Source of the DNA: Candidatus Poribacteria bacterium
GTDB taxonomy: Bacteria > Poribacteria > DTPJ01 > WJIO01
Length of the DNA stretch: 12,365 nucleotides
Assembly: GCA_014730235.1 (NCBI GenBank)
Contig: WJIO01000167.1
Span: forward strand, 1-12,365
Direction of reading: 5' to 3'
Every line of letters begins with the position of its first letter. The first letter of the stretch is position 1. Shown piece after piece: positions 4,154 through 10,969 of this stretch. The notes beneath the pieces were generated by a model. The model worked only from the letters and a program-made list of their open reading frames with translations, did not search any database and was not told the DNA's origin. A program made the translations under genes and the position numbers.

Positions 4154-4978
4154 TTAAAGCATAGACATTACGCAACTCAGCAGTTCATCTTCTGGAACAA
4201 TACCTGTTCTGCCTGATCCAAGCTGCTGATCAAGCCACTGTTTTGTTTTTCCCACGACTGGACTAGATTCATATACAGTATCTTCATCAATTAACCCCAG
4301 GCATGTATTAATCCAGTAGGAGATAGCGGCTGGGCTGGAGCTAAAGGTCAGTGCTATGTCTGTTATTTCCGATTTGTTTACTTTCTCTTTTTTAAAAGAT
4401 TTTTTTATATCTTCTCTTTTAAGACCATCAACCCTTATAACAACATCACTATCTATGCGTTCATAGTTAAAAACATATACATCATTACCGCGACGCTCAA
4501 AATTGCTGTACTTATTAAGACTTATACAGCATTTAAGAATAGCAGGTTTATCATTTTTATTTCGGGAACGCATTATGGCTATATTTCCGGGAATTTTGGT
4601 TTTGGAAGCGAAGAAAATCCTTCGTTCTTTCCTTGATTTTTTAACCCGGAAACCTTCCTCAAGTATAGACTTAGCGCAGGATAATGTTGTTCCATGCCAT
4701 AAAATTACATTTCGGTCAATATCCCGACTGAGATCAGGTATATATAAACGAATTTCATCAGCCAAAATACCATAATGAGCCGCAAAATCCTCCAGACGGA
4801 GGGATGGATCGCGCTGACTGCGTCGTTGATATTCCTTCGCAAGCCAATCCATATCCCCCTCCTGGAAACTGCTCTGATAAATGGGAGTATTATCGTGTTT
4901 ACCAGATAATCCTCCCAGTCCAAAAGCCGTTACAGCAGCATTTCTACGATTTCTATCTTTTCCCTTACCTTTATTCAT
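4154..4978 (-). CDS. ADP-ribosyltransferase-like (ART-fold?) protein
   Basis: This 274-residue protein is of uncertain family. The clearest signal is LWHGTTLSCAKSILEEGF at 93-110. That is the pattern (HGT, then A..I...GF) at the NAD-binding start of the PARP/Tpt1-type ADP-ribosyltransferase fold, with H95 as the candidate NAD-contacting histidine. A second block, RIFFASKTKIPGNIAIM (120-136), fits the following aromatic/ser-ala strand. VYVFNYERID (167-176) could hold a later strand, but I cannot identify the catalytic glutamate with confidence. The first 85 residues, starting with a basic segment, and the last 75 are unrecognised. There is no signal peptide. The ATG overlaps the rsgA stop by one base (TAATG), so translation is coupled to rsgA. 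A Tpt1-like RNA 2'-phosphotransferase role is an alternative to ADP-ribosylation. Neither is demonstrated. Confidence 0.6.
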   Translation of the reverse strand: MNKGKGKDRNRRNAAVTAFGLGGLSGKHDNTPIYQSSFQEGDMDWLAKEYQRRSQRDPSLRLEDFAAHYGILADEIRLYIPDLSRDIDRNVILWHGTTLSCAKSILEEGFRVKKSRKERRIFFASKTKIPGNIAIMRSRNKNDKPAILKCCISLNKYSNFERRGNDVYVFNYERIDSDVVIRVDGLKREDIKKSFKKEKVNKSEITDIALTFSSSPAAISYWINTCLGLIDEDTVYESSPVVGKTKQWLDQQLGSGRTGIVPEDELLSCVMSML

Positions 4979-6048
4979 TACTTGCGTCTGGCTCTCCTGT
5001 CTGAAAATTTCTCAGATACTTCTTCTCCTGAAGAAGCTGATCGGTATAATTTCAGATAATTTTTGTATCTGGATTTTGCTATTTTACCATCTTCAACAGC
5101 TTCTAAAACAGCACATCCCGGCTCATCATGATGGGAGCAGTCGGAGAATCGGCATTGGGTTACATAAGGACTTATGTCCGGGAAAAAGTTATGTAGTTCT
5201 TCCTTCCAGATATTCCATAAGCCTAATTCCCGAATCCCCGGGGTATCCACCACATATCCCCCCATATCCAGAGAGTGAAGTTCTACATTGGTGGTAGTAT
5301 GCTTTCCCTTGCTGGTTTTATCGCTGACTTCGTTGGTACGCAGCTTAAGGTTTGGCTGTATAGCATTTAACAATGTGGATTTACCCGCGCCTGATGGTCC
5401 AGCGAGGGCTGTTAATTTATCCTTTAACAAGTCAGTTAAATCATCCAGACCTTCTTTTTTCAAAGCGCTGGAATAGATCACCTTATAGCCTATATCTTCA
5501 TATACCTTTGTTTCTTCTAACAGCTTATTTTTATCTTTTTCATTTACTAAATCCATTTTATTTACACAGACCACCGGAACCAGTTCTCCGGCTTCTGCAA
5601 CTACCAGAAATCTGTCCAGAAGCTGTGCGTTAAATCCTGGATTTTTTGTGGATAAAACAATCAGCAGATGATCAGCATTAGCTACTATTATTTGTTCAAG
5701 GGATACGGGCTTATGTGCTATATCTGATGATTTCATGCGTTTTGGCAGGCGAGTTTGTTTGGATTTAATCTTAATGTAACTGCCGGGAGCAGTTCTGGAG
5801 AGTTTTGATTTTCGGGGTAGGATTTCTTCAATAGCACCTTTTTCGCTTTCGGCTGTGGTTATAATAACTTTATCACCTACAGCTACCGGGTCTTTATAAA
5901 AGTTGGTGCCATCTTCTGCCTGAAATTCACGTTTTACTTTGCCTCTTAGAGTACATTCAATAATGCGACCGTCATAACTAACATAGTAAACTCCTGTTTG
6001 TGCTCTGATAACAAGACCTTGTTTTTCTTCTGTTGTTTTTTCTATCAT
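4978..6048 (-). CDS. rsgA: Ribosome small-subunit-dependent GTPase RsgA
   Basis: RsgA is a circularly permuted GTPase that checks late maturation of the 30S ribosomal subunit. The 356-residue protein shows the family order. An OB-fold domain covers about 10-85. The G domain then follows with permuted motifs: G4 NKMD (163-166), G5 SSA (193-195), G1 P-loop GPSGAGKS (217-224), the GKHTT switch (248-252) and G3 DTPG (268-271). The C-terminal zinc finger is C299, C304, H306 and C312. All are intact and the length is normal. A basic tail RRARRK ends the protein. The ATG is unusual: the strong AGGAGG (6069-6074) is 20 nt away, and only a weak AAGAG lies close. Upstream, the stop of the primase gene is in the same frame, nine codons before this ATG. 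It is the third gene of the operon. Confidence 0.97.
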   Translation of the reverse strand: MIEKTTEEKQGLVIRAQTGVYYVSYDGRIIECTLRGKVKREFQAEDGTNFYKDPVAVGDKVIITTAESEKGAIEEILPRKSKLSRTAPGSYIKIKSKQTRLPKRMKSSDIAHKPVSLEQIIVANADHLLIVLSTKNPGFNAQLLDRFLVVAEAGELVPVVCVNKMDLVNEKDKNKLLEETKVYEDIGYKVIYSSALKKEGLDDLTDLLKDKLTALAGPSGAGKSTLLNAIQPNLKLRTNEVSDKTSKGKHTTTNVELHSLDMGGYVVDTPGIRELGLWNIWKEELHNFFPDISPYVTQCRFSDCSHHDEPGCAVLEAVEDGKIAKSRYKNYLKLYRSASSGEEVSEKFSDRRARRK

Positions 6049-6075: not shown

Positions 6076-7941
6076 TCAGGAAATTAAGCTTTCAAGTAAT
6101 TTGAAATTGTTTTCTCTATTAAAACTTATCATGGATTCTATTTCCTCCAACTGAATATATTTGGTAATTGATACATCATCCCGCGTTAAGTTCCGAGCAT
6201 ATTCCAGACAAAAAATGCCATTAATACCCATGCCATCTTCAGATACAGAATAAGGTACAGGACAGCATTCCTCATATAAAGATACTTTTATATTGGCTTT
6301 ATTCCCGAGATTTTGCCTTAATTGTTGTTTCAATTTCATAGCCAGATATGAAAACCTTGATAATGGAAATCCTGGTTTTATCACCGTATCCAAAATATCA
6401 AAAGGTAAAACAAATCTTATAATATCACTACCATCATACATAGCATAAGCAGGTAAATCCATATTCTGCAAATACGTTGATAGGCTTTCGGCTGAATCAA
6501 GATCTGATGTCAAAACAATATCACAGGCTTTCATATCCCCTGAATCAAAATCATAACGGGCATTGGTGCATCGAAAAAAAGGAGTTACACCGCCGCCCAC
6601 CATATACGCCGCTAAAGCTGGAATACAGGTGGAATCACCATCTATGGTTATATATTCGTCTGTACCCTTTAAAAGCATACATCGTTCTTCAAGATGGTTA
6701 CACATAAATTCCTGCACATCCGGCCGGGAATAATGCTTTATGGCATCAGTGTGTTTTGCCCAGCGAAGGGCAAGCTGTATATTCTGATCATTGATTTCAT
6801 CCTCATGATCTGATACAGCTTTAACTGTATTTTGTATATCAGTATCATTCAAAAGGGATATGCCATTTTCCGCAATCTGTTCACCTGTTTTTATTATACC
6901 CATCTTTATCGGTGCACCAAGGACAAAAGGCATCACCGGGGGAAGGTTTTGATTTAACTCAAGTTCTTTTCGTTTCTTTCTGACAGGTATATGCTTTCTC
7001 TGCCCGATAACTATCTCTATAAGTTCCCTCATACCATCACATGAGTCATCATACACAGGCCACCAGTTATCCTTGACCTGCGCAAACTCAGGACGGGCCA
7101 TCTCCCACGAAAACCGGCTGTATTGCTCTATATCCAGGGGTAAACTCACTAACCCTGTGCTTTCATTCAGGGAATATGGCATTCGTAGGAAATGTCTTGG
7201 GTTTCTGAAAGACCTGTCCAGGGTTTTAGGCTGTTTGAGCTTACCCTTGAAAAAATCCAGCATTTTCCCGTATAATCCCCGATATTTTCCGGGCCTGCGC
7301 CATTCTGGAGGAAAAACCTCTGCTGGAATTATAATGTGAGGGCTGGCATGACCACTGAATTTGATCCGGAACTCCACACCCAGGTCAGACAGCATATTTA
7401 CTATGGGTCTGGCCAAATTAAAGGAAGTGGTTCTGCTTTTCTTAAAATCCACTTCCAGAATTAAATCACACACAGAACCAATGACAGAATCGTATCTTGA
7501 AACAGTTCCATGCATTGAAGGCCAATATCGCCGCTCCTGGGAGTAAAATATCATTATAGGCAGTATGTCCTCAGGCTTGCGAAGCTGAGAACCATTGAAC
7601 ATAGGTTGGAAAGTTCTAACAATCGATAATTTTCTACCCTTTGCGTAATCAAACATGGCCTGCTGTATATCTTTTCTTGAGTAATAGGAAACGATTGTAT
7701 CGTATTTATCACCCTTTATAATTTTGCCGCACTCCTGATAACGCTCAAGAATTTTATGACCAGCTTCTACTACCTGCTGGTATAGATCACCGCTTTTCTT
7801 GCCAGTAGATCTGTTTAACTTTGGTAGAAAAACATGACCTTTAGCCTCTCTTACAGCCGCAGCCTGAAGATTAGCGGAACGTTCCAGGGCCTGTTTATGC
7901 TGTGCCCTGGTCATATTCTTTATTTTTCTTTTCTTTGCCAA
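6076..7941 (-). CDS. Archaeo-eukaryotic primase (AEP) superfamily protein with a second, degenerate AEP domain
   Basis: The 621-residue protein begins with a basic segment (1-20). The first AEP domain (about 85-300) has a YYSR block at 86-89, motif I as LILEVDF with E163 and D165, motif II as SGHASPH at 196-202 with H202, motif III as LD with D242, and RMPYSLN at 253-259 followed by TGLVSLPL. These match the primase small-subunit / LigD-polymerase pattern, so nucleotide polymerisation or priming is plausible. Residues 404-590 repeat the landmarks: YSR at 404-406, CDIVL at 473-477, G504 to P513, and PYSV at 563-566. In that half E163 becomes T478, H202 R509, D242 N550 and R253 P561, so it is probably inactive. 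No helicase, zinc finger or ligase module is present. The start is TTG with GAGGA about 9 nt upstream; the next ATG (codon 10) lacks a ribosome site. It follows the small coiled-coil gene by 27 nt. Confidence 0.85.
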   Translation of the reverse strand: MAKKRKIKNMTRAQHKQALERSANLQAAAVREAKGHVFLPKLNRSTGKKSGDLYQQVVEAGHKILERYQECGKIIKGDKYDTIVSYYSRKDIQQAMFDYAKGRKLSIVRTFQPMFNGSQLRKPEDILPIMIFYSQERRYWPSMHGTVSRYDSVIGSVCDLILEVDFKKSRTTSFNLARPIVNMLSDLGVEFRIKFSGHASPHIIIPAEVFPPEWRRPGKYRGLYGKMLDFFKGKLKQPKTLDRSFRNPRHFLRMPYSLNESTGLVSLPLDIEQYSRFSWEMARPEFAQVKDNWWPVYDDSCDGMRELIEIVIGQRKHIPVRKKRKELELNQNLPPVMPFVLGAPIKMGIIKTGEQIAENGISLLNDTDIQNTVKAVSDHEDEINDQNIQLALRWAKHTDAIKHYSRPDVQEFMCNHLEERCMLLKGTDEYITIDGDSTCIPALAAYMVGGGVTPFFRCTNARYDFDSGDMKACDIVLTSDLDSAESLSTYLQNMDLPAYAMYDGSDIIRFVLPFDILDTVIKPGFPLSRFSYLAMKLKQQLRQNLGNKANIKVSLYEECCPVPYSVSEDGMGINGIFCLEYARNLTRDDVSITKYIQLEEIESMISFNRENNFKLLESLIS

Positions 7942-7968: not shown

Positions 7969-8199
7969 CTAATCCAATTCAAGTTCTTCACGAAGTATCT
8001 CCAGTTCACCCTCCAGATCTATAAGCTGAATTTTATACCAGTCGAGTTTTTTCATGGCTGCTGAAACCATATGCTGTTTTGGTGCAGGAAGTCCCTCGGC
8101 TTTAATTAATCTTCCCTTGTAATAATCCCTTTCTTTCTTGCTTTTTCTGATTAAGTCTATTAAAGCTTGTTCTGCAGCGGCTTTAGTCCTCTGATTCAT
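7969..8199 (-). CDS. Small charged coiled-coil protein
   Basis: The product has 76 residues and belongs to no family I recognise. It is rich in Lys, Glu and Leu, with two helical stretches: about 5-33 (basic) and 43-75 (acidic towards the end, GELEILREELELD). A GLPAP turn lies between them. The pattern suggests a helical hairpin or a coiled-coil dimer, perhaps a partner or assembly factor for the primase-like protein. The ATG has GGGGAG with a spacer of about 7 nt. It is the first gene of the operon, 27 nt ahead of the primase gene and about 30 nt behind the U-tract of the leader terminator. No membrane segment or signal peptide is present. Confidence 0.75.
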   Translation of the reverse strand: MNQRTKAAAEQALIDLIRKSKKERDYYKGRLIKAEGLPAPKQHMVSAAMKKLDWYKIQLIDLEGELEILREELELD

Positions 8200-8555: not shown

Positions 8556-8700
8556 GTAAATCTTCGGATTTTTAGACTCATGAAAATAATTTTTATGCTT
8601 GCAGTTTTAAGCTATTATTGATATATTTAACTAAATAATCTAACCTGGCAATCCCTATATATACGTCTCTTCATTTTTTCAATTTGGTCTAAAATATTCA
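8556..8700. promoter_or_regulatory. Divergent intergenic region with a possible plus-strand promoter
   Basis: This stretch lies between the leftward operon promoter and the repeat in front of the peptidase gene. A plus-strand candidate for the peptidase is TTGCAG (8599-8604), a 17-nt spacer and TATATT (8622-8627). Its -10 box is good but its -35 box is only half-matching. A transcript from it would carry the whole nested inverted repeat in its 5' leader. No ORF is supported here. Confidence 0.35.
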
Positions 8701-8839
8701 GTTTTTCCGGGTTTAGTTTGGTTATAATTGAAAATTCCCTCAGCTTGTCATTCCCGCTTCAAGCTTTTTCAAAAAGCTTGAAGCGGGAATGACAGCATAA
8801 AGAAGTCTCTTATCTTTACCACACTAAACCCGGAAAAAC
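8701..8839. repeat. Nested inverted repeat with 47-nt palindrome, copy R3
   Basis: The core at 8747-8793 is a palindrome of two 23-nt arms around a single C (8770), starting GTCATTCCCGC. Its inner 25 nt match the loop insert of R2 at 2381-2405, and its outer part matches R1 and R2 except that CTGC is CCGC with the compensating change on the other arm. A separate outer inverted repeat of 22 nt (8701-8722 with 8818-8839, one mismatch, including TTTTTCCGGGTTTAG) encloses it. This outer pair is unrelated to the flanks of R1 and R2. The element ends 33 nt before the peptidase ATG. Confidence 0.9.
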
Positions 8840-8872
8840 CAAATATCATAAAAAAATAAATCAGGAGCAGAA

Positions 8873-10969
8873 ATGTCTAAGAATATATGTATTTTGTTTA
8901 TATCTCTACTGTTAATTTCTGTATTATGCAATATTTCCAATTCTCATGAAGTTTTGGTCAGTGTTAAACTTGAAAATTCTAATAATCTGGAAAACTTCAG
9001 GAATATAAGATTTATAGGAAAGGATTTTGCCTTAATTCAGGAAGATGAGGATTTCCTGGCGCTACTGGATATTCCTTATACTTTGCTGGGTGATTTTAGA
9101 GAGAACAGCTTATATTACCTTGTTAAAGCAGGATATGATAATTACCATGTCCAGGAATTGACGGAATTGGGTAATATATTATATAGATTTAGCGATTCTG
9201 TAGTATTGGAAATAGAGCCGCATATGGAAAGATATTTGATAACTATGGGCCTGCCTATAGCTTTACTTCCAAAGAAAATTAAGTTATCATCACCTCGCAG
9301 TTTCTGGATGGCCCCGGATATCAAAACAAAAGAGGAATATGCTGCGGATGCAGTCTTAATTAAAGAAGTCATAGATGCCGTAAGTGTTAATGAAATAGAA
9401 CAATTTATCCTTGATCTACAGGAAAACCGCGACCTTGATCAACCAGGCATTGCATATAGAAGCCGTTATTCTCTGAGAGTGGCGGAAACAGATGATCCTT
9501 CGGATGACGCCTGTGATAATGCAGCCGAATATATTTACAATAAATTTAAAAGCTACGGCCTGGATGTAGAATACGATTCGTTTCCCCATGAAGTCCTTAC
9601 TCAGGGGCATTACCAGATGCGTAATGTAGTGGCAACTTTACCGGGAAGCGGCCCTAACAGCACCAGTATTTTTGTTATAACGGCCCATTACGACTCAGTA
9701 GCGTCCAAATCCCCCAACTGGCAACTGGAATGGAAGACTATGCCTGCTCCCGGTGCAAATGATAACGCTTCGGGAGTGGCGGCGGTTCTGGAAGCTGCCC
9801 GGATATTAAGTCAGTATGATTTTGACTACACCATTAAATTCATCACCTTTTCCGGTGAAGAGTTGGGACTGCATGGCAGTAAACATTATACCAGAAAGGC
9901 ATCGGAAGAAAATAAAGATATAGTTGGGGTTTTGAACTTTGATATGATTTCCTATGATCCTGACGAACTGGATATTGACGTTATAACCAATATAAAATCA
10001 GAGTGGCTGGCTGATGCCATGCTGGCAACTCAAAGCAAATTTAATATCGGGCCCTTGAAATTACATAAAATAATCAATCCAGAAATGGTCTACAGTGATC
10101 ATGCACCTTTCTGGGAACAAGGATGGAACGCCATATTAAGTATAGATAATTCCAATTTCGATTCACCGGAATTTTACCCTATTATGCACACCGTTGACGA
10201 TACCATAGACAATCTTAATTTCAATATGGCCTCCAGTATGATAAGAATTGCAGTAGGCACTTTATGTAGTCTGGCAGATCCAGAAGGCAGTGAACCACAT
10301 CCTGATCTGGCCATAATAAAGGATGATCTGGTGTTATCCCCTGAAAATCCATCCCGGGGGGAAAGCGTGAGAATTACAGCACGGATCGCCAATCTGGGCA
10401 AGGCCGATGCCCGAAGCGTTCCTGTGCAGGTATGGCTTATGGAACCTATTTCCCATGAACCCAGACTTATAAAAGAAGATTTATTTGATCTGGAAGTAAA
10501 TCAATCAGCCAGTATACAGACATCAGTTGAGCTAACAGAATGGGGTAATTATGAAGTTCTGGTTAAGGTAAACCCCGGTTACTATATATTTGAAACCAAT
10601 GGCAGGAATAACGTGATTTCCAGAAGTATTACATTAGGCTCTTCATCTATGCTTTTGGGTAAAATGATGCTTTATCCAAATCCTATGGCCCCGGGTCGTG
10701 ATAAAAATCTGAATGTTACATATACCCTCAGCAAAAATGCCAATACTAGAATGGAAATATACGACTCCATGGGTAATACGGTTTATAAGGAATATTTCAC
10801 TTTAGGAGAACCGGGGGGTAAATTTGGGCCCAATACGGACATAAACTGGGATGGAACAAACCAAATGGGAGAAAAAGTCTCAGGAGGGATATATTTCTGC
10901 TGTATAGTTTCCACTGATGAAAATGGCAATACTAGCAGTCGCAGTAAAAAGTTATTAATTATCAGATAA
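8873..10969 (+). CDS. Secreted M28-family zinc aminopeptidase with CARDB and FlgD-like C-terminal domains
   Basis: The 698-residue protein is probably exported and cleaves amino-terminal residues from peptides. A signal peptide covers about 1-24 (hydrophobic 5-20). Residues 25-180 look like a propeptide or N-terminal accessory region. The peptidase domain (about 195-465) keeps all M28 residues: H272 in AHYDS, D297 in GANDNASG, general base E329 and ligand E330 in FSGEELG, D357 in NFDM and H410 in YSDHAPF. A CARDB-type Ig-like domain follows (about 477-588), then a FlgD-like beta domain (about 595-698) with YPNPM near its start and GGIYFC near the end. Such tails are common on exported proteins and may serve sorting or surface attachment. 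The ATG has AGGAG with a short spacer. The gene converges on the next one with only 3 nt between the stop codons. Confidence 0.94.
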   Translation: MSKNICILFISLLLISVLCNISNSHEVLVSVKLENSNNLENFRNIRFIGKDFALIQEDEDFLALLDIPYTLLGDFRENSLYYLVKAGYDNYHVQELTELGNILYRFSDSVVLEIEPHMERYLITMGLPIALLPKKIKLSSPRSFWMAPDIKTKEEYAADAVLIKEVIDAVSVNEIEQFILDLQENRDLDQPGIAYRSRYSLRVAETDDPSDDACDNAAEYIYNKFKSYGLDVEYDSFPHEVLTQGHYQMRNVVATLPGSGPNSTSIFVITAHYDSVASKSPNWQLEWKTMPAPGANDNASGVAAVLEAARILSQYDFDYTIKFITFSGEELGLHGSKHYTRKASEENKDIVGVLNFDMISYDPDELDIDVITNIKSEWLADAMLATQSKFNIGPLKLHKIINPEMVYSDHAPFWEQGWNAILSIDNSNFDSPEFYPIMHTVDDTIDNLNFNMASSMIRIAVGTLCSLADPEGSEPHPDLAIIKDDLVLSPENPSRGESVRITARIANLGKADARSVPVQVWLMEPISHEPRLIKEDLFDLEVNQSASIQTSVELTEWGNYEVLVKVNPGYYIFETNGRNNVISRSITLGSSSMLLGKMMLYPNPMAPGRDKNLNVTYTLSKNANTRMEIYDSMGNTVYKEYFTLGEPGGKFGPNTDINWDGTNQMGEKVSGGIYFCCIVSTDENGNTSSRSKKLLIIR

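Follow-up and report, generated by a model that had tools for sequence, protein, structure and literature searches.

A tandem archaeo-eukaryotic primase gene in Candidatus Poribacteria

The window, that is, the whole stretch of 12,365 nucleotides analyzed here, belongs to a metagenome-assembled genome of Candidatus Poribacteria (contig G000:C89). Its minus strand carries, at 6076-7941, a gene for a 621-aa protein of the archaeo-eukaryotic primase (AEP) superfamily, in which an earlier sequence-only reading had recognized an internal duplication with one intact and one decayed AEP domain. The gene starts with TTG at 7941 and ends with a stop codon at 6076-6078. The TTG start is supported by the MAKKRK-type N-terminus common to the protein and its paralogues and by an AGAGGA located upstream. 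On the minus strand, a 76-aa open reading frame (ORF; 7969-8199), the AEP gene, the gene for RsgA (4978-6048), and an ADP-ribosyltransferase (ART)-like ORF (4154-4978) follow each other at close spacing. The features of the tandem AEP gene were the following.

6076..7941, minus strand: tandem AEP gene, 621 aa, TTG start
7711..7941, minus strand: basic helical N-terminal tail, aa 1-77 (AlphaFold model and charge, net +12 across aa 1-79)
6991..7710, minus strand: AEP-N, predicted catalytic domain, aa 78-317 (AlphaFold and VIA-align)
7447..7455, minus strand: motif I, E163-V-D165, intact (domain alignment)
7336..7344, minus strand: motif II, S200-P-H202, intact (domain alignment)
7216..7218, minus strand: motif III, D242, intact (domain alignment)
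7183..7185, minus strand: R253, invariant Arg of HxLRxxY, intact (domain alignment)
6751..6990, minus strand: helical linker, aa 318-397 (AlphaFold model)
6079..6750, minus strand: AEP-C, pseudo-domain, aa 398-621 (hidden Markov model, profile-profile comparison, fold match, residue table)
6502..6510, minus strand: decayed motif I, T478-S-D480 (HMM/profile comparison and domain alignment)
6415..6417, minus strand: R509, replacing the motif II His (domain alignment)

As anticipated by the sequence-only reading, the protein has no helicase or ligase partner domain: a Pfam/NCBIfam search detected in it neither of these, nor a Zn stem or any other domain, and no helicase domain was found in the neighbors of the gene in the window, which sets it apart from primase-helicases such as PrimPol-PV1.

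Homology, fold, and active sites of the two halves

The paired landmarks from which the duplication had been proposed lie where they had been reported, namely YSR at residues 87-89 and 404-406, CD at 158 and 473, and PYS at 255-257 and 563-565. A hidden Markov model (HMM) built from seven N domains only detected all five C halves of the family, with scores of 138.5, 106.2, 37.7, 29.5, and 21.9 bits (E-values of 6e-44, 4e-34, 3e-13, 1e-10, and 2e-8, respectively). The C half of the 621-aa protein was the weakest of the five, and 10,000 shuffled C halves reached at most 10.0 bits. Moreover, aligning the N profile with the C profile by hhalign gave a probability of 100 and an E-value of 7e-41 over 238 columns. 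The HMM detection and the profile-profile match together indicated that the internal duplication is real, and a live and a dead AEP domain almost certainly stand in tandem in this one protein. The linker was also considered as a repeat of the N-terminal helical tail, but this was rejected because the HMM scores lay inside the range of shuffles.

The fold of the two halves was then compared through common templates rather than by direct superposition. In a full-chain AlphaFold2 model (25-row alignment; mean predicted local distance difference test score, pLDDT, 77; predicted template modeling score, pTM, 0.55), the secondary-structure elements came in the same order in both halves. Via its N half, the model matched mycobacterial Prim-PolC best (PDB 6SA0/6SA1/5OP0; Z 18.9, 3.8 Å, 242 residues, 14% identity), followed by the LigD polymerase domain (17.6) and PriS (14.6). 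The C half was also modeled alone (pLDDT 73), from an alignment that held N domains and PriS, that is, active AEPs. Its best structural matches were PriS (Z 12.1), LigD-Pol (12.0), and Prim-PolC (11.4), and the first 42 entries were all AEPs (Z 8.8-12.1), followed at Z 7.6 by both an S-2L PrimPol row and the first rows outside the AEPs. The RRM-like two-layer fold of the AEP superfamily was thus found in both halves. Two results had been named in advance as fatal to the duplication, namely halves of different folds or a C half closer to an unrelated family. Given the shared order of elements and the AEPs heading the matches of the C half alone, neither was obtained. The AEP fold of both halves is well supported, as is the inactivation of the second one.

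This inactivation was followed in a residue alignment of 23 intact-motif domains (seven tandem-type N domains, four single Poribacteria AEPs, and 12 PriS-like rows, mostly from DPANN archaea) together with the five C domains. D165, K194, H202, D242, H250, R253, and S266 were invariant in 23/23 intact-motif domains. In the five C domains, by contrast with the N half, where the catalytic motifs E/D-x-D, SxH, and hD are all intact, the H202 position is occupied by R/E/N/Y/Y, D242 by K/C/C/H/H, H250 by E/G/A/E/A, S196 by D/D/D/A/D, and H144 by R/Q/A/L/V. S266 is replaced by Cys in all five, and K194 and R253 are lost in four, the C domain of G000:C169 alone keeping them. The motif I pair is complete in some C domains (E-x-D in that same domain, D-x-D in that of G071:C303) and broken in others, as in the 621-aa protein (T-x-D). 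The pairings E163/T478, D165/D480, H202/R509, and R253/P561 proposed for the 621-aa protein hold, and the loss of the second active site extends across the family. Only the partner of D242 shifted: it was N550, as proposed, in one alignment and K552 in another, and was acidic in neither. Judging from the alignment, none of the catalytic and nucleotide-binding residues is missing from the N half, which we consider very likely to be active.

Besides these losses, Y87, R103, and G197 are retained in all five C domains, as is an acidic residue at the D159 position, and Q93 is retained in four of them. Scaffold residues are thus preserved and the nucleotide/metal site is lost, motif I decaying at different speeds. 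A possible reading of this pattern, which we regard as rather unlikely, is that the C half binds the template or the downstream strand and thereby widens the footprint of the enzyme, as would PriL/PriX or the pocket at the N-terminus of LigD-Pol/Prim-PolC. The positions kept in the first AEP helices (Y87, R103, and mostly Q93), combined with the loss of the nucleotide pocket, would fit such a role. On the other hand, the 621-aa protein has a net charge of +13 in its N half and -13 in its C half, and every full tandem protein is more acidic in its C half than in its N half (C-half charges of -13 in C89, -8 in C303, -5 in C234, and +1 in C169), which makes general DNA or template binding by the C half mildly less attractive. 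This point is not decisive, since active single-domain relatives vary widely in charge, acidic ones included. Charge is thus not diagnostic of DNA binding and was dropped as a sign of it.

Family history and selection on the C half

Besides this gene, the tandem layout was found in another gene of its genome and in two or more further genomes of Poribacteria. Full tandem genes were found at G000:C89 (621 aa), G000:C169 (662 aa), G080:C234 (674 aa), and G071:C303 (639 aa). At G080:C152, a frameshift divides a further copy of this layout. G080:C631 shows the C half only, at a contig end, the contig of the G000:C47 paralogue stops after the N half of the protein, and G057:C433 is a solo relative with intact motifs. 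Any match was obtained in 7 of the 84 genomes of the phylum set, the genomes with matches carrying the name Poribacteria in their records. In a scan of genome contigs from 84,980 species with two peptide patterns, tandem relatives were confined to Poribacteria, the other matches being mainly DPANN primases. Poribacteria also have a second AEP family (L030-L033), made of single domains of about 260 aa with intact motifs, which always adjoin a conserved ORF of about 500-600 aa (548-608 aa for the complete ones, one of them with a DUF4097 match).

In maximum-likelihood trees, the C domains grouped together with a support of 97/97, or 83/83 without the longest branch and the split pair, and they fell inside the tandem-type group (100/98; 95/93). 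The S266C replacement common to all five C domains agrees with one duplication. The trees favor, with modest support, a single duplication, which we regard as likely.

Alternatively, the C half might be a functionless, decaying remnant heading for loss. Very long branches (4.1 changes per column for the C domain of the 621-aa protein) and the frameshift in G080:C152 speak for this idea. However, reading frames are full-length in four genes from three genomes, and the ratio of nonsynonymous to synonymous substitution rates (dN/dS) is low in two pairs of C domains. Indeed, dN/dS was 0.136 between the C halves of G080:C234 and C631 (195 codons, 95% identical), and between C303 and C152 it was 0.160 for the C halves, as compared with 0.158 for the N halves, with synonymous changes near saturation. 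These C-half values of 0.14-0.16 indicate that the pseudo-domain is maintained, and, as estimated from codon comparisons, the C half is under purifying selection despite the loss of its active site. A remnant on its way out is thus very improbable.

Possible function and known relatives

Collectively, these data suggest a history and a division of labor. An in-frame tandem duplication, in one event inside Ca. Poribacteria, would have given rise to a stand-alone Prim-Pol, which within the AEP superfamily would belong to the PriS/LigD-Pol branch. The N half would carry out template-directed nucleotidyl transfer, for priming and/or short-gap filling. The C half, a partner without catalysis of its own, would pack on the N half or be tethered to it, and would position or regulate the enzyme much like the second subunit of dimeric or PriS-PriL/PriX primases. 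Taken as a whole, that is, a stand-alone Prim-Pol with an active N half and a pseudo-AEP C half as structural or regulatory partner, born from one duplication, we find this interpretation somewhat more probable than its alternatives together. Taken separately, the chances are about even that the C half serves as such a structural or regulatory partner and not as a module that binds nucleic acid independently. More tentatively, the dead AEP domain may have taken over the role of PriL/PriX, of a helix-bundle domain or of a second Pol subunit, making the protein a covalent active/pseudo AEP heterodimer.

Several points weigh against this interpretation. The active AEP domains in the alignment of the C half may have pulled its model toward the AEP fold, although the full-length model, where C domains provide most of the coverage of the C half, showed an identical order of elements. 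AlphaFold did not place the two halves relative to each other with confidence (pTM 0.55), so that the model does not establish an intramolecular pseudo-dimer interface. The long branches of the C domains weaken the claim of a single duplication. Finally, motif I survives in part in some other C domains (that of C169 has E, D, K, and R), where residual metal binding is therefore possible.

All four genomes bearing the tandem AEP have DnaG and none of the four has PriL, which indicated that the tandem AEP is not the replicative primase of the cell. In sequence, its main matches beyond Poribacteria are archaeal/eukaryotic PriS, especially DPANN primases, which are about 22-30% identical to it across most of the domain, and it has the HxLRxPYSxNxKTG signature in common with human PriS. 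Yet, its Pfam DNA_primase_S score (14.7 bits) is below the gathering score of 26.8, and it differs from PriS in having no Zn stem, no PriL in the genome, and a tandem pseudo-domain. Prim-PolC acts in gap filling with LigC and base excision repair partners. Like the tandem AEP, it is a stand-alone AEP without helicase, but it has one AEP domain and no C-terminal pseudo-domain. Prim-PolC uses an N-K-Y-K 5'-phosphate pocket (PMC7442782), and the corresponding N-x-x-K motif had no match in eight family proteins in a pattern search at the sequence level. PriSLX, like the tandem AEP, combines a catalytic AEP with a non-catalytic partner, PriX, which is related to the C-terminal domain of Pri2/PriL and not to the AEP domain (PMC10345425).

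The LigD polymerase domain (2IRU, 2FAO) has the fold of both halves (Z 16.8-17.6 for N, 12.0 for C) and is compact like them, without Zn stem. It works in pairs at DNA ends (PMC8656161). The tandem might replace the synaptic dimer of LigD-Pol in an end-joining polymerase of the non-homologous end joining (NHEJ) type. Besides this structural neighborhood, stand-alone ATP-dependent ligases, encoded at other sites in G000 and G080 and matched more weakly in G071, would suit such a role. Nevertheless, Ku was found in none of the seven genomes searched, no protein of the searched genomes passed the Pfam LigD_Prim-Pol cut-off, the N-x-(D/E)-K phosphate-pocket motif was not found in the N tail, and a ligase was neither fused nor adjoining in the loci examined. 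We judged an NHEJ role improbable and rejected it for want of Ku in these seven genomes.

Membership in a defense or mobile-element module, CRISPR-linked or ART-linked, we also hold to be improbable. In its favor, only 172 bp separate the G000:C47 paralogue from a divergent type I-D csc2-csc1-cas6 operon, an ART-like gene stands two genes downstream of the tandem AEP in the window, and other Poribacteria AEPs contain inserted ART-like segments. Conversely, each tandem gene has different surroundings, with no conserved neighbor, and PADLOC gave no match. No cas genes occur in the window, and the G000:C47 paralogue adjoins type I-D effector genes only. CRISPR-associated Prim-Pols (CAPP) share the AEP fold and have a C-terminal module proposed to aid initiation (PMC10345425, PMC8211822). 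This module is not described as an AEP, however, and the CAPP operon with type III CRISPR cas1/cas2 was not found at the tandem AEP gene, which adjoins no cas genes. Since ART family members also abound in Poribacteria genomes that lack an AEP, an AEP-ART functional linkage was dropped. A viral origin was likewise rejected: a scan with one alignment found no relatives in viral contigs, a single weak match to a phage primase covered 14% of the query (E 2e-4), and plasmids gave no match.

Some other features of these loci deserve mention. At G000:C47 (L038, 85-3938), csc2 is the first gene of the type I-D operon, and there is no cas10d on that side. The ART-like segments (LWHGTT) of L034 (1346-3589) and L036 (145-1089), both in G071, lie between the first helices and motif I of the AEP domain, and L034 has HEAT repeats at its end. 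The ART/PARP-like ORF of the window (4154-4978, minus strand; Pfam PARP E 9e-4) overlaps the end of rsgA. Its family is widely distributed in Poribacteria, and ART stretches are clustered on G071:C443, G080:C665, and G028:C56. Upstream of the AEP gene, an inverted repeat at 8694-8846, with two 76-nt arms 1 nt apart and 78% complementary, resembles a miniature inverted-repeat transposable element or a hairpin. Further on, 8873-10969 (plus strand) encodes an M28 peptidase with CARDB and a CHU_C/Por_Secre_tail-like C-terminus, which suggests type IX-like secretion sorting.

The pairing of an active with a pseudo form is familiar from other enzyme families, pseudo-caspases being one example. In agreement with the sequence-only reading, no AEP-AEP active/pseudo tandem was found described in the open-access literature searched, where the known AEP fusions involve helicases, PriCT, PriL-like, TPR, and RT modules. 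The terms "duplicat" and "tandem" are absent from a survey of novel AEP families (PMC5862659), and no relevant open-access paper was found on Poribacteria and primase. The active/pseudo tandem AEP is thus a novelty within a known superfamily rather than an enzyme of a new kind. Should the dead half control the live one, the protein would offer a compact single-chain system for studying how a second subunit aids the initiation of primers or the filling of gaps. The tandem AEP also shows that bacteria with DnaG, here from a rarely studied phylum, keep several dedicated Prim-Pols.
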